From: an uncultured Actinomycetes bacterium
GTDB taxonomy: Bacteria; Actinomycetota; Actinomycetes; Nanopelagicales; Nanopelagicaceae
NCBI GenBank assembly: GCA_937876245.1
Contig: CALEGP010000031.1
Span: 1 to 48,299 of the forward strand
Length of the DNA stretch: 48,299 nt
Direction of reading: 5' to 3'
Positions 1-12,693 of the stretch are shown in pieces; the stretch's first letter is position 1, and the number at the start of each line of letters is the position of its first letter. The position numbers and the translations under genes are program-made. The notes under the pieces were generated by a model that saw nothing but the letters and a program-made list of their open reading frames with translations, had not been told where the DNA came from and did no database searches.

Positions 1-1351
1 GGAGAACTGTTGTGATCTGAGAAGGGGCGGACTTGCTGTCAACGCCACGACTCGCTGGGATAATTGTATCCGATGTAAATGCCTTACTTACGCTTATTTC
101 AGCGGTTAGGAGGTAATTTCCATCAGAAGTACGCTCAAAAGTAGAGGAGATATTCGAGATTTTTAGGCCTACCCACATGCCATTCATGGTGATTGAAGCA
201 TCGACATCATATGTGGTTCCGCTGCCCCCGACTGTGATGTTCTGGGAGAGAAGGATATTGATCGCGGCGTCATCGATAGTCATGGTGTTGCTGTGAAGGA
301 GAAGGCCTTCATTGGTCAATTCTGGGGTGGATTTGGAGACATTGATCGCTCCGTTTTCACCAGCAGCATTTGCCACGGTGAAACCGGTAGGGATGCCCTC
401 TGAATCCAAGCCTTCGAAGGCAAGAACGGCTTGAACAGGCTTGATATCAATAATTTGCGCCGAAGAAGCCTGGGTTTCGGCCTTCTTCTCTGGGGCAACA
501 GTTTGGACTGGGGCCGCAGCCTTCTTGGTATCTGCTTTAGAAGCTTTAGGTGTTGGGCTCTGTGCTGGGGCCTCTTGGGCTGTGGTTGCTGAAGAGACGA
601 TTGAGGTGACATTGTCTTGGCCGGTTACTGAATTGAAGCCAAGGAATGCGACTAGAACAATAAGTAATGAGAGGGCAACTTTTGAAGATTTCTTCGCAAG
701 CTCGGCAGCCTTCTTGTATTGGGTTGAAAGAGCTTCGAGGGCTGTGGTGCCTGTTGCCTCGTCGATAACCCATTCGGTAAGAACACGGACCAATGAGGCG
801 CGGGCGCGACCAACAACATGGCGAACATTCTCTGGCTTTGTGCCAAGAGCCTTTGCGATCTCTTCGGTTGAACGGCCTTCCATTTCCCACATAACAAGGG
901 CGGTACGTTGGTCGGCAGAAAGACGTGAAAGTGCTTCGCGGATGATTGAGGCATCTTCGGCGGCAGCAAGGGTTGAATCAAAGGGAATATGAGCTTGGGC
1001 AGAGATTTCGGCTAGGCGATCTTGGGTTGTTTCAGAGTCGATTGCCACAAGATTTGGCCTAGATCCAGTTGCGCGGATCTGGTTTAAGCAGAGGTTATTG
1101 ACTGTGGTGCGAAGGTATGCCAGCGCACGGTCGGGCGTATCTAGTTCAGGGGCGGCAAGGATGAACTTGAGGAAGGCCTCTTGAACGATTTCGGCGGCAT
1201 CAGCTTCAGAGCGCAGAATCCGACGAGCTTGACCGATTAGAGATGAGCGATTTTGCGCGTATAGAGAGGAGAGATCGGCAACAGACCAATCAGAGACGGT
1301 TGCTGGTGTAGCGGCAACGCCCTCTGTGCTGTTCTTCTTGCGAAGTGCCAT
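1..1351 (-). CDS. ECF-type sigma factor fused to a membrane anchor and extracytoplasmic domain (3' end outside window)
   Basis: 450 residues are visible and the C-terminus lies beyond the window edge. Residues about 29-95 look like sigma region 2 (EADAAEIVQEAFLKF, then AYLRTTVNNLCLNQIR). Residues about 135-192 look like region 4 with a helix-turn-helix (LSADQRTALVMWEMEGRS, then EEIAKALGTKPENVRHVV). One hydrophobic helix follows at about 225-242 (VALSLLIVLVAFLGF). Then come an Ala/Pro/Lys linker (about 255-295) and a beta-rich outside domain of at least 150 residues. ECF sigmas are normally about 180-200 aa and soluble, so this one probably carries its own membrane tether and sensor. The ATG at 1351 follows GGAG at good spacing. 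The direct repeat at 1400-1479 lies in its upstream region. The target promoters are unknown. Confidence 0.85.
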   Translation of the reverse strand, partial: MALRKKNSTEGVAATPATVSDWSVADLSSLYAQNRSSLIGQARRILRSEADAAEIVQEAFLKFILAAPELDTPDRALAYLRTTVNNLCLNQIRATGSRPNLVAIDSETTQDRLAEISAQAHIPFDSTLAAAEDASIIREALSRLSADQRTALVMWEMEGRSTEEIAKALGTKPENVRHVVGRARASLVRVLTEWVIDEATGTTALEALSTQYKKAAELAKKSSKVALSLLIVLVAFLGFNSVTGQDNVTSIVSSATTAQEAPAQSPTPKASKADTKKAAAPVQTVAPEKKAETQASSAQIIDIKPVQAVLAFEGLDSEGIPTGFTVANAAGENGAINVSKSTPELTNEGLLLHSNTMTIDDAAINILLSQNITVGGSGTTYDVDASITMNGMWVGLKISNISSTFERTSDGNYLLTAEISVSKAFTSDTIIPASRGVDSKSAPSQITTVL

Positions 1352-1399
1352 TTGATATATCTCCGGTTTTCTTACTCGAGTTGGCCATTGCTGACCGGT

Positions 1400-1479
1400 T
1401 TTGCAGATGACAACGTCTTGCCCTCTACTTAGTAAGACACCCCTGGGGGCCAAATGTTGTGCTCTGGGGAAAAGAATTT
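1400..1479. repeat. Direct repeat copy 1 flanking the vapBC cassette
   Basis: The first 51 bases (1400-1450) are identical to 2385-2435. After a one-base indel, similarity continues through AAATGTTG and a shared GAAAAGAATTT at 1469-1479 and 2453-2463. This copy sits 49 bases upstream of the sigma gene start, so it may carry that gene's promoter. The start-to-start distance between copies is 985 bases. No ORF of its own was seen. Confidence 0.9.
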
Positions 1480-1580
1480 TTCAGGGGTGCACGCTCACTC
1501 ATATATAGGCATATCCAATACGGGGTCTTTGAGATTGAGCGCTGAATTGGCTTATAGGTGCCTGAGTTTAAAACAATTAT

Positions 1581-1606
1581 GTAGCACAACAGTATTAAAG
1601 TGCTAC
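1581..1606. promoter_or_regulatory. Inverted repeat upstream of vapB, candidate VapB/VapBC operator
   Basis: GTAGCAC (1581-1587) and GTGCTAC (1600-1606) form a perfect 7+7 inverted repeat with a 12-base spacer, ending 9 bases before the antitoxin ATG. VapB-type antitoxins usually repress their own promoter by binding such palindromes. The position fits that role; binding is inferred. Confidence 0.5.
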
Positions 1607-1615
1607 TCTTGCCCA

Positions 1616-1927
1616 ATGAAACCGCACCCTAACCCGGGAAGTTCGGGACAAGTTCAACAAGTTGGAGTGCGCGAACTTCGTCAAGACGCCTCGGGCATCC
1701 TTCGCCAGGTCAAGGGGGGCGAATGTATTGAAATAACCGAGCACGGCCGGCCAATTGCAAGAATCGTTCCGATTGGGCCTTCACTATATGAAGAAGCCAT
1801 AATTTCCGGGCTCATAATTGCCCCCACGATTTCCAGCACTGAGCCAATGCCAAGGTTAATTAAAGCAACCAATGGATTGAACTCAACTGAGGTATTAATG
1901 GAGATGCGAGCGGAAGAGCGCTCTTGA
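1616..1927 (+). CDS. vapB: VapB-type antitoxin (Phd/YefM family)
   Basis: This 103-aa protein has the Phd/YefM fold signature near its start (VGVRELRQDASGILRQVKGG, then ECIEITEHGRPIARIVP). That is the DNA-binding N-terminal part of this antitoxin family. The C-terminal part (about 60-103) would be the flexible toxin-binding arm. The reading frame is open further upstream to 1454. The ATG at 1616 gives the normal family length and places the 1581-1606 palindrome in the promoter. Its TGA stop overlaps the toxin TTG start (TTGA), so the pair is translationally coupled. The gene belongs to a cassette bounded by direct repeats. Confidence 0.85.
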   Translation: MKPHPNPGSSGQVQQVGVRELRQDASGILRQVKGGECIEITEHGRPIARIVPIGPSLYEEAIISGLIIAPTISSTEPMPRLIKATNGLNSTEVLMEMRAEERS

Positions 1928-2310
1928 GTTGGTATTTAGATAGTTCTGCAATTCTGAAGTTGATCATCGATGAATCCGAATCTGTCGCGATGCGAAACAT
2001 TTTTGATGATCGGTGCGCGACATCTGTCATCGCAAGAATAGAAGTAGTAAGAAATATTAGGAGAGTAGAACCAGCCGCCCTTGCTTCTGCCCAGGAAATA
2101 TTAGGTCGAATTGCAATGATTCCCCTAAATGAATCGGCTCTTAAAACAGCTGAAGCAATCACAGCCTCCACTAATTTGAAAAGTCTTGATTGCATCCATA
2201 TTGGCTCGATGATTTCTTCACCAATCCCACTTCAAGGAATAATTACATACGACAAAGCGATGGCTGCGAATGCAGAAATGTTGGGAATTAAAGTATTAAG
2301 TCCTAGTTAG
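1924..2310 (+). CDS. vapC: VapC-type toxin, PIN-domain ribonuclease
   Basis: This 128-aa protein has the PIN-domain pattern: YLDSSAILK with the first catalytic Asp at residue 6, an acidic residue in ARIEVVRN, SLDCIHIGSM carrying a C-terminal-half Asp, and ITYDKAM with the last acidic position. PIN toxins cut RNA (often tRNA) with a metal held by these acids, and the antitoxin blocks them. The start is TTG at 1924, overlapping the antitoxin stop by three bases. No better ATG keeps the YLDSSA motif. The remains of another gene lie head-on 15 bases beyond its stop. All catalytic positions look intact, so the toxin is probably functional. Confidence 0.87.
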   Translation: MSWYLDSSAILKLIIDESESVAMRNIFDDRCATSVIARIEVVRNIRRVEPAALASAQEILGRIAMIPLNESALKTAEAITASTNLKSLDCIHIGSMISSPIPLQGIITYDKAMAANAEMLGIKVLSPS

Positions 2311-2325
2311 AAAAAGGGGTTTTGC

Positions 2326-2384
2326 TTAAATTTTTGGCAGATGCCAATCAAATTTTATTGATGCCTCGCGAACCAGCCAGACAA
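2326..2384 (-). pseudogene. Remnant of a second UPF0126-family gene (last ~19 codons only)
   Basis: Read on the minus strand this is an open 3' end, VREASIKFDWHLPKI then TAA. It is nearly the same as the C-terminus of the intact UPF0126 gene at 5571-6173 (VREVSIKFDWHLPKI). The 23-base stretch around the stop (GCTTAAATTTTTGGCAGATG and the next three bases) is identical. The similarity ends exactly where direct repeat copy 2 begins, so the rest of the gene was removed or never arrived. It is too short to be functional. Confidence 0.8.
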
Positions 2385-2463
2385 TTTGCAGATGACAACG
2401 TCTTGCCCTCTACTTAGTAAGACACCCCTGGGGGCAAATGTTGCCCTTATTTGAAAAGAATTT
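2385..2463. repeat. Direct repeat copy 2 flanking the vapBC cassette
   Basis: This is the second copy of the ~80-base repeat at 1400-1479, in the same orientation; the first 51 bases are identical. It abuts the UPF0126 remnant on one side and runs to 16 bases before the stop codon of the Ig-repeat gene on the other. The two copies enclose the vapBC genes and the remnant. Confidence 0.9.
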
Positions 2464-2479
2464 CGGATATTTAGCCGAA

Positions 2480-4354
2480 TTAGGGGATTCTGTAGGTTTT
2501 ATTGAAGATGATCGTTGAGCCCACCCGGACCACAACGGTATTAGGGCCTGATTTCACCTTATTTTTGCCAAGCTTGCCCTTTTTGCCATTGATTTTGACC
2601 TTGACGATGCTGCCGGTGACCGCGATTCTGATGACCTTCTTCTTTTTCTTTACCTTAACTTTCACGACAGGTTTTGATGTTGTAGAGGTAGAAGGCGTTG
2701 CCTTTGGTTTTGGGGTTGCTGAAGCTTTTGGTGTTGGAGTTGGGGTGGCTTTGATTGTTGCTGGCACCACCGTAATAATCGATTGAACTGAATTTGATTG
2801 TCCATATTTTCCACCCGGGGATTGGGTAGCAATAATTGTTGTGCTTCCAACGGAGACGCCCACGATTGTGTTGTTAACAACCTTTGCAATTGTCGGATCA
2901 GTGATTGTGTAGACCCATTTACCTGTCGAGCTAGATGGGGGATTTGGAATTGCAAGAAGAGTCTGATCAACTTCAACTGAGACGGGCGGAAGTGCGCCGA
3001 CTGTTGGGGTTGTTCCTAGGACGTTAACTTTAAAAGTAAGAGTGCCACTTAACCAGAATTCACTTGCCGCCTGGGTCATTGTGATTGTTGCACTTCCGGC
3101 ATTTCCAAAAATTAACTTTGAGCCAGAGATAGCCACAATTTCAGGATCAGATGAGGTGTAAGTCCAAGCACCGGCAGAAGTTGAAGTTGGTGGTAGAACA
3201 GTTTGTTCCCCATCACCAACGACTTTCTGTAAATCTTGAATTGCGCTATATGTTGGGTTGCCACTTACTGTCAGAATCAACGTTGCGGTTGTGGCGCCAT
3301 AATTGCCTGAGACTGCTTGTGAGGCGGTAATAGTCGTATTTCCAGGCTTAAATACTCGAATATTTCCTACATTTCCCAATGCCACACTTATCGTGCCAAC
3401 GCTAGTGTCTGATGAAGAGAATGACCATGTGCCAGGTGAGTTCGATGTTGGGGCAAAGATCGAGAGAGTATTAGAGGAAGTCGAAGACATTACATAGGTA
3501 ACATCTTTAAAATCACCAACTGTCGCAGTTGCGCCAAGAATTGTTAAAGTCATTTTCAAAGTGGAGGAGCCAAAGCCACCAGATGCTGCCTGGAATGCGG
3601 TAATTGTGGTGGTGCCAATATTTAGCGGGGTCAGCACTTTTCCATAAAGTGAGGCGATCGAGGAGTTTGCGATCGTGAAAGTCCAAGCGCCGGGCGAGCT
3701 AGAAGTTGGCTCGATAAGGTTTAGGCTTAAAACACTATCTTTTGCAATCATAATGTTAGTAAATGTTCCCAATATTCTCGGCAAACTTGTAACTCTAAGA
3801 GTTGTGCTTACCTCAGTTCCCTCCCAGTTTGAGCTGGCCGATTGAATGGCGGTAATTGTTATGGTTCCCGCATCTAAGAAAGTGGCGTTATTGCTGGAAA
3901 TTGTGGCTATTTTGCTATCAGAGGAACGATAGCTCCAAGGCGCGGTTGAGGTCGAGGTCGGCGCAGTCAATTTAATTGTTCGACTTAGTAAAGTCGCTGT
4001 GATCGGAGCAAAAGTGCCGACGGTCGGTATTCCTTTTTCAACAGTAAATCTTGAAACTCGAGAGACGCTAGAAAAAGTTCCACTTGCCGCTTGGGTATAT
4101 GTGACACCAGTTGTTCCAGATTTCAAAATAGTTACTACAAGACCCTTTGCCGTCGCGATAGTTGGATCTGTGATCTCAACTGACCAAGCACCGGATGAGT
4201 TCGAAGTTGGCGGGACCAGAGTTGCACTGCCTTGATCAAATTTTGCTGTTTGTGGAACAGGAAGTGAAACTCTTGGATAGGCCGCAAAAGATGAAGGGGT
4301 GTGCAGGGTAAAAATTCCGAGTACCAGAATCGCTGCGAGGAATTTTTTTCTCAT
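2480..4354 (-). CDS. Secreted protein with six Ig-like (Big-type) repeats and a Lys-rich C-terminal part
   Basis: The 624-aa product starts with a signal peptide (Lys-rich start, hydrophobic core, cleavage near residue 24, SSFAA). Six repeats of about 82-90 residues follow (about 26-531). Each has a variant of PTSxSxGAW, then SSDPxIATI, then GxTTITAxQAASG, as in bacterial Ig-like surface domains. A Pro/Thr/Ser/Lys spacer (about 532-561) leads into a very basic beta-rich end containing KVKVKKKKK and NGKKGKLGKNKVKSG. No LPxTG sorting motif or membrane anchor is visible, so it may be held by charge or released. An adhesin or envelope role is inferred. It runs in the same direction as the sigma factor gene, and the vapBC cassette lies between the two. 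Confidence 0.8.
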   Translation of the reverse strand: MRKKFLAAILVLGIFTLHTPSSFAAYPRVSLPVPQTAKFDQGSATLVPPTSNSSGAWSVEITDPTIATAKGLVVTILKSGTTGVTYTQAASGTFSSVSRVSRFTVEKGIPTVGTFAPITATLLSRTIKLTAPTSTSTAPWSYRSSDSKIATISSNNATFLDAGTITITAIQSASSNWEGTEVSTTLRVTSLPRILGTFTNIMIAKDSVLSLNLIEPTSSSPGAWTFTIANSSIASLYGKVLTPLNIGTTTITAFQAASGGFGSSTLKMTLTILGATATVGDFKDVTYVMSSTSSNTLSIFAPTSNSPGTWSFSSSDTSVGTISVALGNVGNIRVFKPGNTTITASQAVSGNYGATTATLILTVSGNPTYSAIQDLQKVVGDGEQTVLPPTSTSAGAWTYTSSDPEIVAISGSKLIFGNAGSATITMTQAASEFWLSGTLTFKVNVLGTTPTVGALPPVSVEVDQTLLAIPNPPSSSTGKWVYTITDPTIAKVVNNTIVGVSVGSTTIIATQSPGGKYGQSNSVQSIITVVPATIKATPTPTPKASATPKPKATPSTSTTSKPVVKVKVKKKKKVIRIAVTGSIVKVKINGKKGKLGKNKVKSGPNTVVVRVGSTIIFNKTYRIP

Positions 4355-4417
4355 GCTGGCATTATCTCGTTTTGGCCTGAGATATTTGGGATTTAGCGCT
4401 TAAAAGTGCAAAGAAGT

Positions 4418-5527
4418 CTAGCGAACCGCAGAATAAGTGCCGCGACTTTCCATCGTCCGGAAAACAATTTGCAGCAATTGAATATTGCGGGATCTGAAGC
4501 CTGCCGCCGAGGCCAATAAATAATAATTCCACATTCGACGAAAGCGTTCATCATAGTTTGGGATTTCTTCCCACTTGCTATTTATATTGGCATGCCACTG
4601 CATAAGTGTCCTGTCATAATCTGGGCCAAAGTTGTGAACATCCTCAATGATCGCTTTTGCCTCTACCGCCTTTGAAATTTGAGCAAGGGATGGAAGTACC
4701 CCGCCCGGAAAGATATATCGATCAAAGAATGGATCGGTAACCAGCTTGCTCTGATTTGAGGTGATGGTGTGGTGGAGCATTTGACCGCCCGGGGATAGAA
4801 GCGAAGTGCACTTTTCAAAAAATGTTTCATAATTTTTAGGACCAACATGCTCCATCATCCCGACAGAAACTACTCGATCGAATTTTCCGGTCAGGTCTCG
4901 GTAATCTTGCTGCAGATATTGGACTGAGAGTGAGCCGCTGCGTTCCTTTGCTAATTCGATCTGGTTATCTGCGGGTGAGATTCCGGTGCCAATAACGCCA
5001 TAATTTTTTGCCGCATATCTAAGCAATCCGCCCCAACCGCAGCCAATATCCAGCAATTTCATACCTGGTTGCAGGCCAAGTTTGCGACAGATCAGATCAA
5101 ATTTTGCGATCTGCGCTGCGTTAAGCTCTGTTGCATCTTTCCAATAGCCACAGGAGTAGGCCATCTCGGGATCGAGCATTCGGGTGTATAAATCATTTCC
5201 AATGTTGTAATGATGTTTGGCATTTGCTGCCGCTTTTATCTTGGTTTGGCGATTTAGAATTGTTGATTTCATCGCATGGCCGACTAACGAGAATGAAAAT
5301 GGGGCGTGATCTAGAACATTCACGGCCAATAGCCTTGTTAAGAATTGATCAACTGATGGCGCATCCCACCAACCATCCATGTAAGCCTCGCCCAGCCCTA
5401 ATTCACGCTGCGAGACAATGCGATCCCATAATCGATCGTTGTGAACTTGGATATCCCATGGATTGGGGCCATTTACTTCTACGCCCGCCAACCCCAAGAT
5501 ACGGAAGCACAATTGCTTAGAATTCAT
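4418..5527 (-). CDS. cfa: Cyclopropane-fatty-acyl-phospholipid synthase
   Basis: At 369 aa this is a full-length Cfa-type SAM methyltransferase. It transfers a methylene from SAM to the double bond of acyl chains in membrane phospholipids. Visible family marks are GLGEAYMDGWWD (about 44-55), HHYNIGNDLY (about 105-114), MAYSCGYW around Cys126, the SAM loop LLDIGCGWGG (about 158-167) and VGMMEHVG around Glu226. These match the CFA and mycolic-acid cyclopropane synthase family. It stands alone, with short spacers to the Ig-repeat gene and to the UPF0126 gene upstream on the same strand. The ATG at 5527 is the natural start. Confidence 0.93.
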   Translation of the reverse strand: MNSKQLCFRILGLAGVEVNGPNPWDIQVHNDRLWDRIVSQRELGLGEAYMDGWWDAPSVDQFLTRLLAVNVLDHAPFSFSLVGHAMKSTILNRQTKIKAAANAKHHYNIGNDLYTRMLDPEMAYSCGYWKDATELNAAQIAKFDLICRKLGLQPGMKLLDIGCGWGGLLRYAAKNYGVIGTGISPADNQIELAKERSGSLSVQYLQQDYRDLTGKFDRVVSVGMMEHVGPKNYETFFEKCTSLLSPGGQMLHHTITSNQSKLVTDPFFDRYIFPGGVLPSLAQISKAVEAKAIIEDVHNFGPDYDRTLMQWHANINSKWEEIPNYDERFRRMWNYYLLASAAGFRSRNIQLLQIVFRTMESRGTYSAVR

Positions 5528-5570
5528 AGTTGCAATCTTCTAACAAAATCCCGGAATTGAAAAGCCCAGC

Positions 5571-6173
5571 TTAAATTTTTGGCAGATGCCAGTCGAATTT
5601 GATTGAAACTTCGCGCACAGCAACTACAACTAGGCCGGCGAAAATAGTGGTTGCGAGCTGGGAAATCTGTGCTTGATTTAAGAGGGCATAGACAAGTGCG
5701 CCGGCCAGACAGGATGTGCCAATAGTTTCCCGGTGCAGGAGAACTGGTTCAACCTGACATAACACATCGCGCAGAAGCCCGCCGGTAACTCCGCCGATGA
5801 TTCCAAGAATAACAATGCTGAGAAAATTAATTCCATTATTCGCTGCGTAATGCGCACTTGAAACGGTCGCAACAGCCAGGCCAAAAGTATCAAGGGCTAA
5901 AATAAATCGCCCTATCGGTTTGGTATTTTTAGCAAAAATAGTAATGGCCACGGCAAGTGCAACCGAAGCAAATAACCACGAGTGTAAAATCCAAGGTGGT
6001 CGTTGACCCATAAATAAATTCCGTAACGTTCCGCCACTGAGCGATGCGACGGCTGCGATAAGTGATATCCCGCCGTAATCCATCCCTTTGCTTGCCGCAA
6101 TCCGAGCGCCCACAATGGCAAATGAGAAAGTTGCAATCAGATCTAGTGCGGTAACTAGTGGATCGAATTGCAT
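5571..6173 (-). CDS. UPF0126/TRIC-family membrane protein, candidate glycine transporter
   Basis: This 200-aa, almost entirely hydrophobic protein contains two tandem UPF0126 units (about 7-90 and 93-176). The repeated marks are FAIVGARIAASKGMDYGG with LRNLFMGQRP, and FGLAVATVSSAHYA with GGLLRDVLC. About seven membrane helices are likely. The family is related to trimeric cation channels and Pfam now labels the domain a glycine transporter. Here it starts 6 bases after the stop of an SHMT-like gene, so the two are probably one transcript. A link to glycine metabolism is an inference from that pairing. A 59-base remnant of a close paralogue lies at 2326-2384. Confidence 0.85.
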   Translation of the reverse strand: MQFDPLVTALDLIATFSFAIVGARIAASKGMDYGGISLIAAVASLSGGTLRNLFMGQRPPWILHSWLFASVALAVAITIFAKNTKPIGRFILALDTFGLAVATVSSAHYAANNGINFLSIVILGIIGGVTGGLLRDVLCQVEPVLLHRETIGTSCLAGALVYALLNQAQISQLATTIFAGLVVVAVREVSIKFDWHLPKI

Positions 6174-6179
6174 CGGCGC

Positions 6180-7508
6180 TTATTCCGGCTTATCTAAGGT
6201 GTAATGAACTTCGGAAAATGCTTTACGAAATTCTTTAACTTCTTTGGCAATCGGTGCCATATCTTTCTCGGACAGAGCGCGAACAATAAAGTCGGCAAGT
6301 TGTGGCATATCCTTTTCTTTCATGCCGATTCGAGCAACTTCTGGTGTGCCGATTCGAAGTCCATTGTTATCGCCTTCAACTGTCGGGCCTGGCAATCCAA
6401 TACCGCAGGTAAGCAATCCGGCCTTTGCAATTTTCTTTGAAGTGCTCTGGCCACCGCCAAATGGTTTAGCCAAAATTGCGAATTGATGTGATTTGGTAAA
6501 TCCGCGATCGGCGGCAAAAATTTCAATTCCGCGAGCTGAAATTTCTGTCGCAAGTTTTTGCGCTGTCGCCGCCATCATCTGAGCATATGCCGGTCCGACA
6601 GATTTCCAGTCTTGCAGTGTGATCCCAAGCGCCGCAGTTTTTGCGGCATCAAAATTTGCAGTAAGTCCCGGATATGCAATGGCATCAATGGTTTCGGCCA
6701 ATTTCGCATCGTTTGTGACGATAAGGCCACCGGCCGGACCGCCTAGTGATTTGTAGGTGCTGAAAGTCATTAAATGAGCGCCTTCAGCTAAGGGCTGGGG
6801 CCAGACTTTTCCAGCAATCATTCCGCAAAGGTGGGCCGCATCAAAGAGAACTAGTGCGCCAACTTCATCAGCAATTGCTCTTACTTCTTTTATGGGATGG
6901 AAAAATAAATTCAGACTGCCACCGATAGTTATCAATTTTGGTTTTACTTCATGAGCTAATTTACGCAGCGCGCCAATGTCGACGCTATAGCCATCTTCAT
7001 CGATTGGCGCTGGAATAGTTTTCAAACCATAAAGTCCGGCGGCGCCTTGCGCGTGATGGGTTACGTGGCCACCGATAGTTGCCGGCGGAGCAATAATGGT
7101 GTCGCCCGGTTTACAGGTCGCCATAAATGCATACAAGTTTGCTAGCGCGCCAGAGCCAACTCGGAATTCGGAAAATTCGGATCCGAAAAGATCACAGGCA
7201 AGGGCTGAAGTTATTACTTCAATTTTTTCAATTGCGTCAAGTCCAACTTCATACTTGTCGCCAGGGTGTCCGAGTGATGCGCGCGATCCCATTCCCGAAG
7301 ATAGAAGAGCTTCGGCGCGGGGATTTAAAATATTTGTTGCGGGATTTAAATTTATGGAATCAATGTCATGAATCTGATGGCTCTCTTGGGCCAGCGCCTC
7401 GATTTCATGTTGTACACCTATTGCATCAAGAGTTCGATATTTTGCAAGAACGCTCTGGACAACGTCTTGGCTTTGCGGAACTAGCCAGGTGCGATCTGCA
7501 GGACTCAT
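6180..7508 (-). CDS. Divergent serine hydroxymethyltransferase-like PLP enzyme
   Basis: The 442-aa protein has the fold-type I, SHMT-family layout. It shows a GSGALANLYAF core (about 118-128), the cofactor-stacking part GGHVTHH (about 146-152), the Asp of VLFDAAHLCGMIAG (about 220-233) and the PLP lysine in FSTYKSLGGPAGG (Lys253). However, the usual IASEN motif is replaced by NLNPATN, and the YAEGYPGKRYYGG segment reads ASLGHPGDKYEVG, so the catalytic Tyr and Glu of true SHMTs are missing. It may use another aldehyde or donor, as SHMT-like transaldolases and 2-methylserine enzymes do. It is coupled to the UPF0126 transporter gene. Glycine/serine-type chemistry is likely; the exact reaction is unknown. 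Confidence 0.8.
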   Translation of the reverse strand: MSPADRTWLVPQSQDVVQSVLAKYRTLDAIGVQHEIEALAQESHQIHDIDSINLNPATNILNPRAEALLSSGMGSRASLGHPGDKYEVGLDAIEKIEVITSALACDLFGSEFSEFRVGSGALANLYAFMATCKPGDTIIAPPATIGGHVTHHAQGAAGLYGLKTIPAPIDEDGYSVDIGALRKLAHEVKPKLITIGGSLNLFFHPIKEVRAIADEVGALVLFDAAHLCGMIAGKVWPQPLAEGAHLMTFSTYKSLGGPAGGLIVTNDAKLAETIDAIAYPGLTANFDAAKTAALGITLQDWKSVGPAYAQMMAATAQKLATEISARGIEIFAADRGFTKSHQFAILAKPFGGGQSTSKKIAKAGLLTCGIGLPGPTVEGDNNGLRIGTPEVARIGMKEKDMPQLADFIVRALSEKDMAPIAKEVKEFRKAFSEVHYTLDKPE

Positions 7509-7547
7509 AAAAGAACGCTAGCACCGTATGGCTACAGTTCTAAATGG

Positions 7548-7661
7548 CTAGCAGGTACAGCGGTCAGATTCTGCAACGCCAAATAACGCGTCTTCAACAT
7601 GTTCGCCGCAACCAGACCAAGTGGCTTTTTTGCAACGGTCGCAAGTTACTCTTGAACACAT
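7548..7661 (-). CDS. Cys-rich microprotein, 37 aa (family member A)
   Basis: The protein has Cys2, a Cys7-x2-Cys10 pair, TWSGCGEH giving Cys18-x2-His21, and Cys35 plus Cys37. This looks like a small zinc or thiol knuckle. A paralogue with the same frame of residues lies at 32443-32619 (shared MCSR, TC, KC or RC, TWSGCG, GV and RC). The frame is open upstream to 7730. The start at 7661 is favoured by GGAG 8 bases upstream and by alignment with the paralogue, which also begins MCSR. It diverges from the MFS gene across a CsoR/CstR-type palindrome. The function is unknown; short MCSR-type proteins recur in actinobacteria. Confidence 0.75.
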   Translation of the reverse strand: MCSRVTCDRCKKATWSGCGEHVEDALFGVAESDRCTC

Positions 7662-7703
7662 ATCTATATCTCCTCTGTTTTGGTCTTTACTTGGAGAAGT
7701 TAT

Positions 7704-7731
7704 AGTATACCCCCCAGGGTATATATGCAAA
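7704..7731 (-). promoter_or_regulatory. Promoter of the Cys microprotein gene
   Basis: On the minus strand TTTGCA (7726-7731) and TATACT (7704-7709) are separated by 16 bases, a good sigma-70-type pair. Transcription would start near 7697, leaving a leader of about 36 bases before the ATG at 7661. The spacer and the -10 box are covered by the palindrome at 7705-7724, as expected for a repressor site. Confidence 0.55.
7705..7724. promoter_or_regulatory. CsoR/CstR-type operator between Cys microprotein and MFS genes
   Basis: GTATACCCCCCAGGGTATAT contains ATACCC and GGGTAT half-sites four bases apart. That is the same arrangement as the perfect site ATACCCCTAGGGGTAT at 35005-35020 in front of the CstR-like gene. 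CsoR-family repressors bind such C/G-rich palindromes. The site lies between the divergent genes starting at 7661 and 7750. The regulator at 34681-34968 is the only family member in the window, so it is the likely binder (inference). Confidence 0.6.
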
Positions 7732-7749
7732 GAGCGGAATGGAAGCTAA

Positions 7750-8976
7750 ATGAGCGAACTATCGCTAAAAGAACAGCAGCAAAAGGTTATTCGGGTGTTA
7801 AGCGCGGCCCAGGTTTTAAACGGGGTAGGTGTCACTGGGACGGTTGCGGCAGGCTCGCTTCTGGTCGCATCCATCACAAAATCTGAAGGGCTGGCTGGCT
7901 TAGCCCAGACAACTTCGGTTCTTGGCGCAGCGGCGATGGCTCTGCCTTTGGCGCGTCTTACCCAGAAAGGTGGAAGGCGACTTGCTCTTACTGTCGGATA
8001 TTCCTCTGGGGTTATTGGCGCCGGATTGGCAATATTCGGGGGGACGCAGAGAATTTTATTCTTTATGTTACTTGGTGCATTTATGGTTGGTGCGGCATCA
8101 GCTTCTGGCTATCAAGCAAGGTTTGCCGCAATTGATTTAGCAACACCTGAGAACCGGTCTAAGAATTTATCTTTCGTAGTTTGGGGTTCAACCATCGGGG
8201 CAGTTACCGGCCCAAACTTGATGGAGCCCTCCGGAAATTTTGCAGAATTTTTAGGGCTGCCCAAATTGGTAGGGCCATATTTTATTGCGGCAACAACTTT
8301 ATTTTTAGCCGCTGTGGTTATCCAACTATTTTTAAAGCCTGATCCATATTTAACAGCCAATCGCGCAGCTGATGGCATCTCACAGAAAAAACATGAATCA
8401 ACCCGTGCTGCCCTACTTCATATTCGGAAATATCCGAAAGCGCTTTTTGCGATTGCTTCGGTTGCAATCGGCCACCTTGCAATGGTTTCCATAATGGTAA
8501 TGACGCCAGTTCATATGGCTCATTTCGATGTGACCCTTCGGATAATTGGTTTAGTAATCAGCGTTCATGTTTTGGGGATGTTTGCTTTCTCGCCAATTGT
8601 TGGCGCGCTGAGTGACAAAATAGGGCGGATCGCGACGATTCAAATTGGCGTAGTGATTCTTTTAGCATCTGCGGTAATAACGGCAATCGCCCCCGGGCAC
8701 AATTCTTTTGAGCTTGGTATTGGCCTATTTCTCCTGGGTTTGGGTTGGTCATTTACTTTAATTGCTGGTTCAACGCTCTTATCTGAAACGGTAAGCATCG
8801 ATATGCGACCCGCGACTCAAGGGGCAAGTGACTTGGTTATGAATTTAATGGGCGCCGGCGGAGCAGCAATCGGCGGAGTAATAATCGGAGTTTTTTCCTT
8901 TGCCGCGCTCTGCTATGCCACGGGGCTAGTAGTTCTGGCTCTAGGATTTTGGTCGCTTAAGTTAGTGAAGGCTTAA
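7750..8976 (+). CDS. MFS transporter
   Basis: The 408-aa protein has about 11-12 hydrophobic helices in two halves, with loop marks of the major facilitator superfamily: LARLTQKGGRR after helix 2 (about 68-78) and its second-half counterpart GALSDKIGRIATIQ. Substrate cannot be read from the sequence. It diverges from the Cys microprotein gene, and the CsoR/CstR-type box ends 26 bases before its ATG. Expression is therefore probably tied to sulfane-sulfur or metal stress, and export of a sulfur or metal species is one possibility. Its stop touches the stop of the convergent AraC gene (8976 and 8977) with no terminator space between. Confidence 0.82.
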   Translation: MSELSLKEQQQKVIRVLSAAQVLNGVGVTGTVAAGSLLVASITKSEGLAGLAQTTSVLGAAAMALPLARLTQKGGRRLALTVGYSSGVIGAGLAIFGGTQRILFFMLLGAFMVGAASASGYQARFAAIDLATPENRSKNLSFVVWGSTIGAVTGPNLMEPSGNFAEFLGLPKLVGPYFIAATTLFLAAVVIQLFLKPDPYLTANRAADGISQKKHESTRAALLHIRKYPKALFAIASVAIGHLAMVSIMVMTPVHMAHFDVTLRIIGLVISVHVLGMFAFSPIVGALSDKIGRIATIQIGVVILLASAVITAIAPGHNSFELGIGLFLLGLGWSFTLIAGSTLLSETVSIDMRPATQGASDLVMNLMGAGGAAIGGVIIGVFSFAALCYATGLVVLALGFWSLKLVKA

Positions 8977-9954
8977 TTATTTGCGAATAGTTTCAGAAGG
9001 CAGCTCGCCGAAACGCTCGTAATAAATTTTTGCAAATCTGCCCAAGTGGGTGAAGCCCCAAGAAAATGCGACATCGGCGATTGAGGAGTTAAATCCCTGA
9101 TCAGAAATAAGCTCTTCCCGGACGCGAGTCAGACGCACATTTCGTAAATAATCGGTTGGACTCATGCCAACGTATTTCTTAAATCCATCTTGCAGTGAGC
9201 GAATACTTACGCCGGCAATTCTTGCCATATCCGTAACAGTCAGCGGCTCTTCGGGGCTGGATTCACAGGCTTGCATTGCCAAACGAACTGATCTCGGTGC
9301 AGCCGGTTCAACGCTAGTACCAATCGATTCAGTGTAATTGTGTCTCTGTGAAAGAAGCAGGCTGCTGATAATTAAATCTTGAAATTGATTTCGTACTCCG
9401 GCATGCATCGTCAATCCGCCACGATCAACATCGGTTACCAGGGTGTCAACTAAAGTTCGCCAGCTTCTTGCCTCTGGTGTTGTGAGATCCATTCCTAAGT
9501 CGAAGCGGACTGGCAAGTGAAGTTCGCGGCCAATTAAATCTTCCAGCCGTTCTTCCAAGGTGCTGCGATTTATATAGACCAGAAGTTGTGGATTATCGTC
9601 GTGCCAAATCATGTCCAGTTTTTCCAGCGGATTGGGGATAGAGGCCATGTTTACATCGGAATGAATTGTCTGCTTCCCACAGGTAATTTCTGCGCTTCCC
9701 GAAAGCGGCATTTGAATCAGATAGAAAGAAGTTAGTTCGCCAGGGGTGATATGAACTTCGGCGCCATAATCCAAATAATTTAAAGTCACATCCCCTAGGG
9801 TGACTCGGTTATGGACAGTATTTAATTGCTTGTTCTTCTTAGTTGTCGTAAGGGCGTGGGGGCAAAAAACACGAGCGACTTCACTTCGCGCCTCATCCAA
9901 GTGGGTTGTACGAAATAAATTGTGATCTTTAAGCGCTTCTTGGACTGCCGTCAT
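8977..9954 (-). CDS. AraC-family transcriptional regulator
   Basis: The 325-aa protein has an N-terminal sensing part (about 1-210, cupin-like AraC-binding type; note ITPGELTSFYLIQMPLSG) and a C-terminal pair of helix-turn-helices (about 228-325). The latter reads LTVTDMARIAGVSIRSLQDG and VAFSWGFTHLGRFAKIYYERFGELPS, the standard AraC pattern. Regulators of this build often control oxidative breakdown of aromatic or carboxylic compounds. The gene diverges from the SDR gene at 10111 with a 156-base gap that could hold a shared control region. Regulation of the SDR and possibly of the monooxygenase is an inference. Confidence 0.88.
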   Translation of the reverse strand: MTAVQEALKDHNLFRTTHLDEARSEVARVFCPHALTTTKKNKQLNTVHNRVTLGDVTLNYLDYGAEVHITPGELTSFYLIQMPLSGSAEITCGKQTIHSDVNMASIPNPLEKLDMIWHDDNPQLLVYINRSTLEERLEDLIGRELHLPVRFDLGMDLTTPEARSWRTLVDTLVTDVDRGGLTMHAGVRNQFQDLIISSLLLSQRHNYTESIGTSVEPAAPRSVRLAMQACESSPEEPLTVTDMARIAGVSIRSLQDGFKKYVGMSPTDYLRNVRLTRVREELISDQGFNSSIADVAFSWGFTHLGRFAKIYYERFGELPSETIRK

Positions 9955-10110
9955 TTGCGAATCGTTCTATTTGAGCCATCGGCTGTCAATGGTTTTGCCT
10001 ACTTTTAGCGCGCTTATTTGCGTTCTTTGGATAACCCATGCGTGGCTGGGACACTATTTAGGAGCTGGAATCCATAAGGTCTGCATAATTACTTAAGCTG
10101 GAGGAGAAAA

Positions 10111-10926
10111 ATGAGTTCAGAGCCATCAAAATCAAATAGTTCATCGGGTTCACTAAGCGGCAAGGTTGCAATTGTCACGGGTGGTGGAACGCTATTTGGC
10201 GCAGCAGTAGCCAAAACTTTGATAGCTGATGGCGCCAAAGTTATGATCGTTGAAATTAACGCTGAAAGTGGCAGCGCGGCCGCGAAAGAGTGCGGCGCAA
10301 ATTTCTTTCATGGCGATGTAACTGACGATGCCTCTATTGCAAAACTTATTGATTCCACAATTTCGGCCTGGGGTCGGATAGATATTTTGGTAAATCTTGC
10401 TTGTTCCTATGATGATTCCGGCGCAGAGAGTACTCGTGCGCAATGGACAAATACTTTGAATGTAAATATCTCCAGCGCTGCGATGTTGGCCGCCGCAGTT
10501 CGACCATATATGAAGAGAGAGGGCACCGGATCGATTATCAATCTCACAAGTATTTCTTCAGCGGTCGCACAAACTGGACGTTGGATTTACCCAGTGAGCA
10601 AAGCAGCTTTGGTCCAGTTAACTCGTAACATGGCTATGGATTATGCTGGTGACAAAATTCGAGTGAACTCAGTTTCGCCCGGTTGGACATGGTCGGCAAT
10701 TATGGATTCTCTCTCGAAGGGAGACCGCGCGAAAACAGATCGTGTTGCCGCACCATTTCATTTAACTGGTCGAGTCGGAGATCCCGAGGAAGTCGCAAAT
10801 GTTATTTCATTCTTAGCCAGCGATAAGGCATCTGTTGTTACTGGTGCAGATTGGGCCGCCGATGGCGGTTATTCTGCAATGGGACCGGAGCAAGCTGTGC
10901 CCGCGATCCCATTACTAGAAGCGTAA
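10111..10926 (+). CDS. Short-chain dehydrogenase/reductase
   Basis: This is a 271-aa classical SDR with a Rossmann start VAIVTGGGTLFGAAVAK (cofactor loop TGGGxxxGxxxA, about 23-36). The catalytic Ser is in NLTSISSA, and Tyr and Lys are in YPVSKAALVQLTRNMA. The tail VTGADWAADGGYS is also typical. The usual NNAG stretch reads NLAC here, which is unusual. Asp near the first turn has been replaced by a VEIN stretch, suggesting NAD rather than NADP preference, though this is uncertain. A strong GGAGGA ribosome site precedes the ATG. It is divergent from the AraC regulator and ends at a clear hairpin terminator. Substrate unknown. Confidence 0.88.
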   Translation: MSSEPSKSNSSSGSLSGKVAIVTGGGTLFGAAVAKTLIADGAKVMIVEINAESGSAAAKECGANFFHGDVTDDASIAKLIDSTISAWGRIDILVNLACSYDDSGAESTRAQWTNTLNVNISSAAMLAAAVRPYMKREGTGSIINLTSISSAVAQTGRWIYPVSKAALVQLTRNMAMDYAGDKIRVNSVSPGWTWSAIMDSLSKGDRAKTDRVAAPFHLTGRVGDPEEVANVISFLASDKASVVTGADWAADGGYSAMGPEQAVPAIPLLEA

Positions 10927-10952
10927 CTAGTTAAATATCTTCACTAGTTTTT
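10925..10952 (+). terminator. Rho-independent terminator after the SDR gene
   Basis: AACTAGT (10925-10931) pairs with ACTAGTT (10943-10949) across an 11-base loop and runs into TTTTTC. It begins at the SDR stop codon and separates it from the convergent monooxygenase gene. Confidence 0.65.
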
Positions 10953-10990
10953 CTTGGTTACTTCTTCTCTAGTTCTTACCTGCTTCTTTA

Positions 10991-12457
10991 CTACTTCTTA
11001 TTAAGTCGTTTGCGAAGCTTTGGACCGATCTTCGCGTAACTCTTTGGATTGATTGGCAAGAGCCACTGATTGAAGCGAATTGGTGCTGGGATTTGTAGCT
11101 TTAGATCGACAAGCAACTCATCGACGTTATGTACAGAGAATGGAATGATGTTTGTTCCACGCGCATGCTTGTTCTCGGTGCGCTTCTCCATCCAAGCAAG
11201 ACGCTTGTCGATATGTGCCAGCATCTCACTCTTTGTCGGCAATTTAATTGCACCTTCAATGTTTGCTGCGATCCAGATCGCTCCGACCTCAGCATTTAAT
11301 TGTGAGAAGAATGAGGAGTTGTATCCGTTGAATGCGATGTTTGTTACATCCAAAGGTATTAATTGGCGATACAGACGGAAGTTTCCACGATCATCATTAA
11401 TTGATTTCATCACCGAAGCCTCAAGGAATGGCACTCGTTGATGGAATCCGGTTCCACAGATTACATAATCAGCATCCAAGACTTTGCCATTTGAAAGCGT
11501 AACTTTCCCGGCAGCCATGCTGGTGATCTCTGTGTCGCGTTCAACAAACAATTTGCCGGCTTTGATGTTCTTGAAGAAGCCATCTGTAGCAAGTGAAACC
11601 GTGCTTCGCACAATTGTGTCTAAACCAGTCTTTGGGTGAAGGCCAAGCTTCTCTAATTTAAACTGCTTCTCGATAACACCTTGAACACTTCCCAACATTC
11701 CCGCGCTGACTTTCTTGCCCTTACCGTGTAAGAAGGCTTCGGCACCTTTTAGTTCGATATAAGGAAATAGCGCTTCTCCCATGCGGGTAAGTAGAAGCAT
11801 CTTGTAATTCAAAACGTTATTAAGGCGCTTTGGCACCTTCCAAATCAAGTGACGGGCAACAATAGTGGTTTTCTTTGCAGTTCCAACGGTCGCATTTGCC
11901 GCATCGCACGAGGACTTTCCATATCCAACTACGACAACGTTCTTTCCGCGAACATCCTCTAAGTTATGGAAATCAACGGTATGCATGATCTTTCCGCCAG
12001 CAGCTTTAAATGCATCTGCGCCTTTCCATTCTGGGATAAATGGATCTGAGAAAATACCATTTGCAACAATAAAATAATCAAAATCTTCTGCAGACTTCTT
12101 ACCATCTTTAGAAATTTCAATGTTCCAAGAACCATTGCTGTTCTGCTTAGCAAGTGTTACCTCAGTGTTAAATGAAATCTTATTAAAAACATTGAATTTT
12201 TTGGCATAAGCTTCGATGTATTGTTGAACTTGTTCTCCGCTTGGCCATTCCGGAGTTCCTTTAGGATATGGAAAATCGCTCATCGCATATGTGCTCCGAA
12301 CATTTTGGGTTCCAAGTCCTGGATAGCGACGAGTTACTGACCAAACTCCGCCGACATCATTTTCTTTTTCAAATACTTGAACTTCGTGTCCAAATTCTGT
12401 CAATACTTTTGCTGACGCGATGCCTGCAAAACCGGCCCCGACGATTCCAATTTTCAT
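10991..12457 (-). CDS. Flavin-containing monooxygenase (FMO/Baeyer-Villiger type)
   Basis: The 488-aa protein has an FAD Rossmann motif GAGFAG (7-12), an FMO-like fingerprint around GKIMHTVDFHN (His159, Phe163) and a second nucleotide motif VVVVGYGKSSCD (about 174-184) for NADPH. GTGFHQRVPF in the C-terminal half is the third conserved turn of the family. Such enzymes insert oxygen at N, S or carbonyl carbon. The frame is open 13 codons further upstream. The ATG at 12457 is preferred because AGGGG stands 9 bases before it and GIVGAGFAG then starts near the N-terminus as usual. It is convergent to the SDR gene. A shared oxidative pathway with that SDR is likely but unproven. Confidence 0.85.
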   Translation of the reverse strand: MKIGIVGAGFAGIASAKVLTEFGHEVQVFEKENDVGGVWSVTRRYPGLGTQNVRSTYAMSDFPYPKGTPEWPSGEQVQQYIEAYAKKFNVFNKISFNTEVTLAKQNSNGSWNIEISKDGKKSAEDFDYFIVANGIFSDPFIPEWKGADAFKAAGGKIMHTVDFHNLEDVRGKNVVVVGYGKSSCDAANATVGTAKKTTIVARHLIWKVPKRLNNVLNYKMLLLTRMGEALFPYIELKGAEAFLHGKGKKVSAGMLGSVQGVIEKQFKLEKLGLHPKTGLDTIVRSTVSLATDGFFKNIKAGKLFVERDTEITSMAAGKVTLSNGKVLDADYVICGTGFHQRVPFLEASVMKSINDDRGNFRLYRQLIPLDVTNIAFNGYNSSFFSQLNAEVGAIWIAANIEGAIKLPTKSEMLAHIDKRLAWMEKRTENKHARGTNIIPFSVHNVDELLVDLKLQIPAPIRFNQWLLPINPKSYAKIGPKLRKRLNKK

Positions 12458-12620
12458 CCGATAAAACCCCTGTCTTCTCGGCGGTGCCGAGATCATTAGT
12501 TAGCGAGGTTAGGAAGAAAGAGGAAAATTACTTATCCAGCCCACGCGAGGGATATCCATTACGCGCTCTGACTTGTTTCTTGGGCGTGGTGTGAGCTTTC
12601 ATTACTGGTCTGTTGCTGGG

Positions 12621-12693
12621 TGGGCCCCGTCGGGATCGAACCGACGACCCACGGATTAAAAGTCCGTTGCTCTACCGACTGAGCTAGAGGCCC
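12621..12693 (-). tRNA. tRNA-Lys (anticodon TTT)
   Basis: A 73-base cloverleaf: acceptor GGGCCTC/GGGGCCC, D arm GCTC...GAGC, anticodon stem ACGGA/TCCGT around CTTTTAA (anticodon TTT), T arm GTCGG-TTCGATC-CCGAC and discriminator A. No CCA is encoded. Confidence 0.97.

Follow-up and report, generated by a model that had tools for sequence, protein, structure and literature searches.

A putative sigma-gene control region present twice around a vapBC module: a candidate joint of two versions of one variable actinobacterial locus

Promoters of autoregulated ECF sigma factor genes carry a two-block element with fixed spacing, located directly upstream of the sigma gene. Tandem duplications of which a remnant persists leave a head-to-tail joint. 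In homology-facilitated illegitimate recombination, shown experimentally in other bacteria (PMC3240628), one side of the foreign DNA is joined by homology and the other illegitimately. The window analyzed here, a stretch of 48,299 nucleotides from genome G000 (39 contigs, 1.52 Mb), contains a vapBC gene pair flanked by two copies of a sequence designated R; a literature search returned nothing about this locus.

The core of the first copy, R1 (1400–1450, minus strand), and that of the second, R2 (2385–2435, minus strand), are identical at 51 of 51 bases with an offset of 985. One single-base gap extends the alignment through weaker extensions (1451–1479 beside R1, paired with 2436–2463 beside R2), so that about 80 bases can be aligned. 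To the left of the cores the sequences diverge immediately (GCTGACCGGT at R1 versus AGCCAGACAA at R2). The longest exact repeat in 60 Markov-resampled windows measured 20 bases, versus the 51 observed. Across the whole genome R1 and R2 were the sole two strong matches to R, and the search for a third copy returned one further 14-base chance match (E 1.3). The perfect core and weaker flank described in the original prediction were thus confirmed by alignment, as was the enclosure by the repeats of vapB, vapC and a gene remnant, which corresponds to the 3′ end of a TRIC-family gene. A second exact repeat, of 23 bases, on which that prediction was silent, is shared by this remnant and the intact TRIC gene of the window.

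The gene to the left of R1 (2–1351, minus strand) encodes an ECF-type sigma factor (Pfam Sigma70_r2, 3.9e-13; Sigma70_r4_2, 1.1e-11), of which 450 residues lie within the window, the gene continuing past the contig end; in our reading, the protein would carry a C-terminal membrane/outer extension. Orthologs were found in genomes G004, G014, G022 and G033, and a gene more than 80% similar in three of the genus's 26 other genomes. Codons 1–113 are nearest to G004 and G022 (88%), followed by G014 (86%). DNA identity to the orthologs of the genus is 86–89% in codons 1–220 and 72–79% beyond. The leader between the gene and R1 includes a segment common to G014 and absent in G004 and G022.

R was present in 34 of the 296 family genomes searched, in two copies in the genome of the window and in one in each of the 33 others. 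Loci were inspected from 29 of these 33, the four weakest matches yielding no locus. In 28 of the 29, an ortholog of the sigma gene begins immediately to the left of R and has the same orientation, the remaining locus (L212) being cut by the contig end; none of the 28 loci with a readable flank had R away from the sigma gene. Per-base identity to R1 over the 29 loci was 0.24 in the leader (1352–1399), 0.90 at 1410–1419, 0.86 at 1420–1430, 0.79 at 1431–1438 and 0.92 at 1450–1459, and the family-conserved part of R1 spans about 1411–1462. Two conserved blocks lie 12 bases apart in all 29 loci, as determined by a script in 24 and by eye in five, where the script pattern had matched too early. On the minus strand R reads CAACATTT, 12 bases, TGTCTTA and then TAGAGGG, an order of blocks which we take to resemble that of an ECF promoter. 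Conservation of R extends across species, with 94% identity over 65 bases to both G004 and G022. Most simply, R would be the own control region of the fused ECF-type sigma gene, its putative promoter and leader; it is not the end of a mobile element and not a part of a vapBC cassette.

Other identities of R were considered and rejected. A consensus scan of 1300–2520, which does not cover ECF promoters, found no sigma-70 promoter, and R was discarded as a promoter of that type. A dispersed repeat or MITE was rejected on account of the copy numbers, two in this genome and one in each of the 33 other matching genomes. No other site with the R motif was found in the genome when a spacing of 12 bases and up to three mismatches were allowed. 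The original prediction had also named, as a case against it, that the two repeats might be promoters of unrelated genes; this holds by half, in so far as R appears to be the promoter region of the sigma gene, and does not extend to R2, which has no downstream gene of its own. At loci L008 (G014), L009 (G004), L011 (G022) and L086 (G009), a near-palindrome around CCTATATATAGG was observed just past R, on the flank that does not face the sigma gene; it occurs with or without vapBC, and in the window it is decayed to the right of R1 and absent to the right of R2.

Between the repeats, on the plus strand, lie a vapB-type antitoxin gene of the Phd family (1616–1927, 103 amino acids; TIGR01552, 35.5 bits, cutoff 20.8) and vapC, encoding a PIN-domain toxin (1924–2310, 128 amino acids; PF01850, 6e-13, 49.9 bits, cutoff 23.6). 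The antitoxin gene is upstream and the reading frames overlap by 4 bases. VapB scored 29.1 bits against PF02604, just below the cutoff of 29.8. VapC retains the acidic residues D6, E40, D89 and D110, to which we presume a catalytic role. An inverted repeat just upstream of vapB (1581–1606, GTAGCAC-12-GTGCTAC), also present in G022, is likely to serve as the autoregulatory operator. Orthologs occupy the same place in G022 (VapB 91% and VapC 80% amino acid identity), the only one of the 296 family genomes, the window's own included, to hold a close vapC; the next best match had 47%. Substitution values relative to G022 (dN 0.04 and dS 0.63 for vapB; dN 0.12 and dS 1.44 for vapC, the silent-site values being high and rough) are taken to show purifying selection on the pair, which is probably a working toxin–antitoxin module. 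Neither gene was matched by PADLOC, and no relative of VapC with a solved structure was found by sequence. VapC had no match among 50,697 phage records and two among 72,556 plasmid records, at 32–35% identity; a phage or plasmid origin of vapBC was rejected.

To the right of vapC, the remnant (2326–2386, minus strand, identified by tblastn) comprises about 20 codons and the stop of a TRIC-family gene and is cut off at R2. Four genes follow on the minus strand: a gene for a 624-residue Ig-like-repeat protein (2480–4354, from the ORF list, with orthologs in G022, G004, G009 and G085); a cyclopropane-fatty-acid synthase gene, CFA (4418–5527; NF008686, 503 bits, cutoff 400), present in five of the genus's 26 other genomes; the intact TRIC-family gene (5571–6173; PF03458, 109 bits), of the Pfam family Gly_transporter, which we take to be TRIC; and a serine hydroxymethyltransferase-like gene, SHMT (6180–7508), named from its sequence, with 90–91% amino acid identity to genes in the same place in G004 and G022. 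The remnant matches the intact gene at 79% over 19 amino acids by tblastn. Its DNA is identical to G014 at 46 of 51 bases, to the window's own gene at 41, to G022 and G085 at 39 and to G004 at 36. Of the ten bases that distinguish the remnant from the own gene, G014 shares the remnant's at nine. By contrast, the last 23 bases (2324–2346, stop codon included) are those of the own gene and show three differences from G014. The affinity of the remnant, as read from these alignments, is mixed.

Whereas the window has the order sigma-R1-vapBC-TRIC tail-R2-Ig-CFA-TRIC-SHMT, relatives hold other arrangements. G022, a metagenome-assembled actinobacterium (its contig matches L007, WLIT01000029.1, in length and content), has sigma-R-vapB-vapC-Ig-TRIC-SHMT with one R and without the remnant; G004 has sigma-R-Ig-TRIC-SHMT without vapBC; and G014 has sigma-R-TRIC without Ig, CFA or vapBC. 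The G009 contig begins inside R, leaving the sigma side outside it, and reads R-Ig-CFA. G019 reads Ig-CFA-TRIC tail, with 79 N-terminal residues of the Ig protein. The junction of TRIC tail and R2 occurred in no examined relative, and among these relatives vapC adjoins a TRIC tail in the window only. In G014 the TRIC-family gene beside R (L008:3759–4362) is disrupted, with frameshifts and a stop codon early in the reading frame.

The right end of this region is a tRNA-Lys gene (12619–12693, minus strand, ARAGORN), followed by apt. Because the distance from the sigma start to tRNA-Lys is about 11.3 kb in the window but ranges in relatives from 2.6 kb (G014) through 6.7 kb (G022) to 16.1 kb (G004), the stretch is regarded as a variable interval. 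Its contents, up to tRNA-Lys/apt, differ in each of these four genomes of the genus (1–12693 in the window). Contigs of several genomes break in the interval or inside R (at the starts of L086, of L011 and L116, and of L114 and L115), and the sigma gene of G022 is split over two contigs with an overlap of 147 bases. These breaks suggest strain mixtures at the locus.

The reading that we prefer, with moderate confidence, is that in the window two versions of one variable locus are joined illegitimately, head to tail. Version A would have had the order sigma-R-vapBC-TRIC and version B the order (sigma)-R-Ig-CFA-TRIC-SHMT, the 3′ end of TRIC from A being fused to the left edge of R from B. The likely route would be that a fragment taken up from a related cell entered by homologous exchange at one side, the other side being closed by end joining with hardly any bases in common; vapBC was probably gained earlier than the joint. 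The joint itself, AGCCAGACAA followed by TTTGCAG at about 2385, shares no more than 2–3 bases with the presumed parents. The order of the parts, the remnant, the single-copy R of relatives and their other partial orders are direct observations; we infer, beyond these, that the halves came from different cells, by what route, and which half was resident. The joint of two versions is favored because it requires one event, the remnant is nearest to G014 and the leader of R1 is G014-like; in its favor, too, partial orders occur in G022, G004, G014, G009 and G019. Against it stand the last 23 bases of the remnant, identical to the own TRIC gene. The full order of version A was seen in no relative examined, G014 having it without vapBC, and the relatives compared do not include genomes of the same species, that is, possible parental forms. 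Since R is strongly conserved and single-copy in 33 other genomes, a match is what would be expected of two alleles from different lineages, and because of this conservation between species the perfect agreement of R1 with R2 does not indicate recent copying. The string GGGGGCAAATG, common to R2 and G009, was dropped as a sign of a G009-like donor because it forms the very start of the G009 contig, where a shared deletion cannot be seen.

The main rival, which we consider unlikely, is that R-vapBC-Ig-(CFA)-TRIC tail was duplicated in tandem within the genome, after which the first copy lost Ig and CFA and the second lost vapBC. A tandem duplication with a decayed middle had been offered in the original prediction, and the order fits it in that the TRIC 3′ tail is joined to the left edge of R; a duplication would leave exactly this joint, with the G022 order as a plausible start, and the 23 terminal bases shared with the own gene speak for it. 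However, it needs three events instead of one, and 10 of 51 bases separate the remnant from the own gene, against full agreement at 51 of 51 between R1 and R2, although drift would be expected in R2 too, as it drives no gene. The agreement of G014 with the remnant at nine of the ten differing bases also argues against it.

The original prediction had favored a vapBC cassette whose insertion duplicated a host sequence, or an integrated circle. Empty sites with one repeat and no vapBC, which it had proposed to look for, do occur, fully in G004 and, on the contig starting inside R, in G009. A circle [R-vapBC-TRIC tail] recombining into a single resident R by one crossover would double R and yield the same end product. 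Yet G022 holds orthologous vapBC in the same place with a single repeat and none behind, so that the gain of vapBC and the gain of R2 look separate; the duplication of a host sequence by vapBC insertion is unsupported, and a target-site duplication or att site was rejected on the same evidence. A filled site of a mobile cassette would have two repeats, and that of G022 has one. Moreover, the repeats enclose vapB, vapC and the remnant, with no integrase or transposase, VapC has no phage match and two distant plasmid matches, and in none of the 28 loci with readable flanks does R occur anywhere but at the sigma gene. We therefore regard the circle as improbable.

R2 is probably a passenger, since its blocks are 11 bases apart, the spacing of 12 found in R1 and in all 29 loci having been lost, and it has no gene of its own. 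The same two features are the main argument against a very improbable scenario in which the duplicated promoter gives vapBC new behavior. If it were true, a sigma-dependent transcript from the minus strand of R2 would cross vapC and vapB in antisense, deletion of vapBC by RecA recombination between the identical copies could restore sigma-R-Ig, and toxin–antitoxin addiction would keep an otherwise unstable joint in place. Recombination of R1 with R2, considered by itself, could remove vapBC and leave sigma-R-Ig. An assembly artefact in which two strains were collapsed through the repeat is the least probable explanation: the genome is in 39 contigs and the locus breaks contigs in G009 and G022, but a collapse would change strain within R and place a sigma leader left of R2, and the novel joint is instead at the R2 left edge, beside TRIC codons, with no overlap to mislead an assembler.

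The locus is an ordinary, well-resolved mosaic. On the preferred reading it illustrates that a conserved promoter doubled by the joining of two locus versions can mimic a mobile cassette bounded by repeats, and that perfect repeats alone neither date nor prove an insertion when the repeat itself is under selection. The comparison also identified, in actinobacteria with small genomes, a conserved and putatively regulatory element belonging to a fused ECF-type sigma gene, and an interval of variable gene content from this gene to tRNA-Lys.

R shares with autoregulated ECF sigma promoters a conserved two-block element of fixed spacing directly upstream of the sigma gene; it differs in that the motif has no other site in the genome and in being known from sequence. 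The gene pair is like VapBC type II toxin–antitoxin modules in its overlapping antitoxin and PIN-domain toxin genes and upstream inverted repeat, whereas here the antitoxin matches the Phd family and the outer repeats lie outside the module. With a tandem duplication remnant the window has in common the head-to-tail joint of TRIC tail and R, but its two sides carry different gene sets and its remnant is mostly nearer to the allele of another species than to the resident copy. As to homology-facilitated illegitimate recombination, the case of the window is deduced from a single joint, the illegitimate one, and that process (PMC3240628) could leave part of the resident sequence in duplicate, as found in the window.
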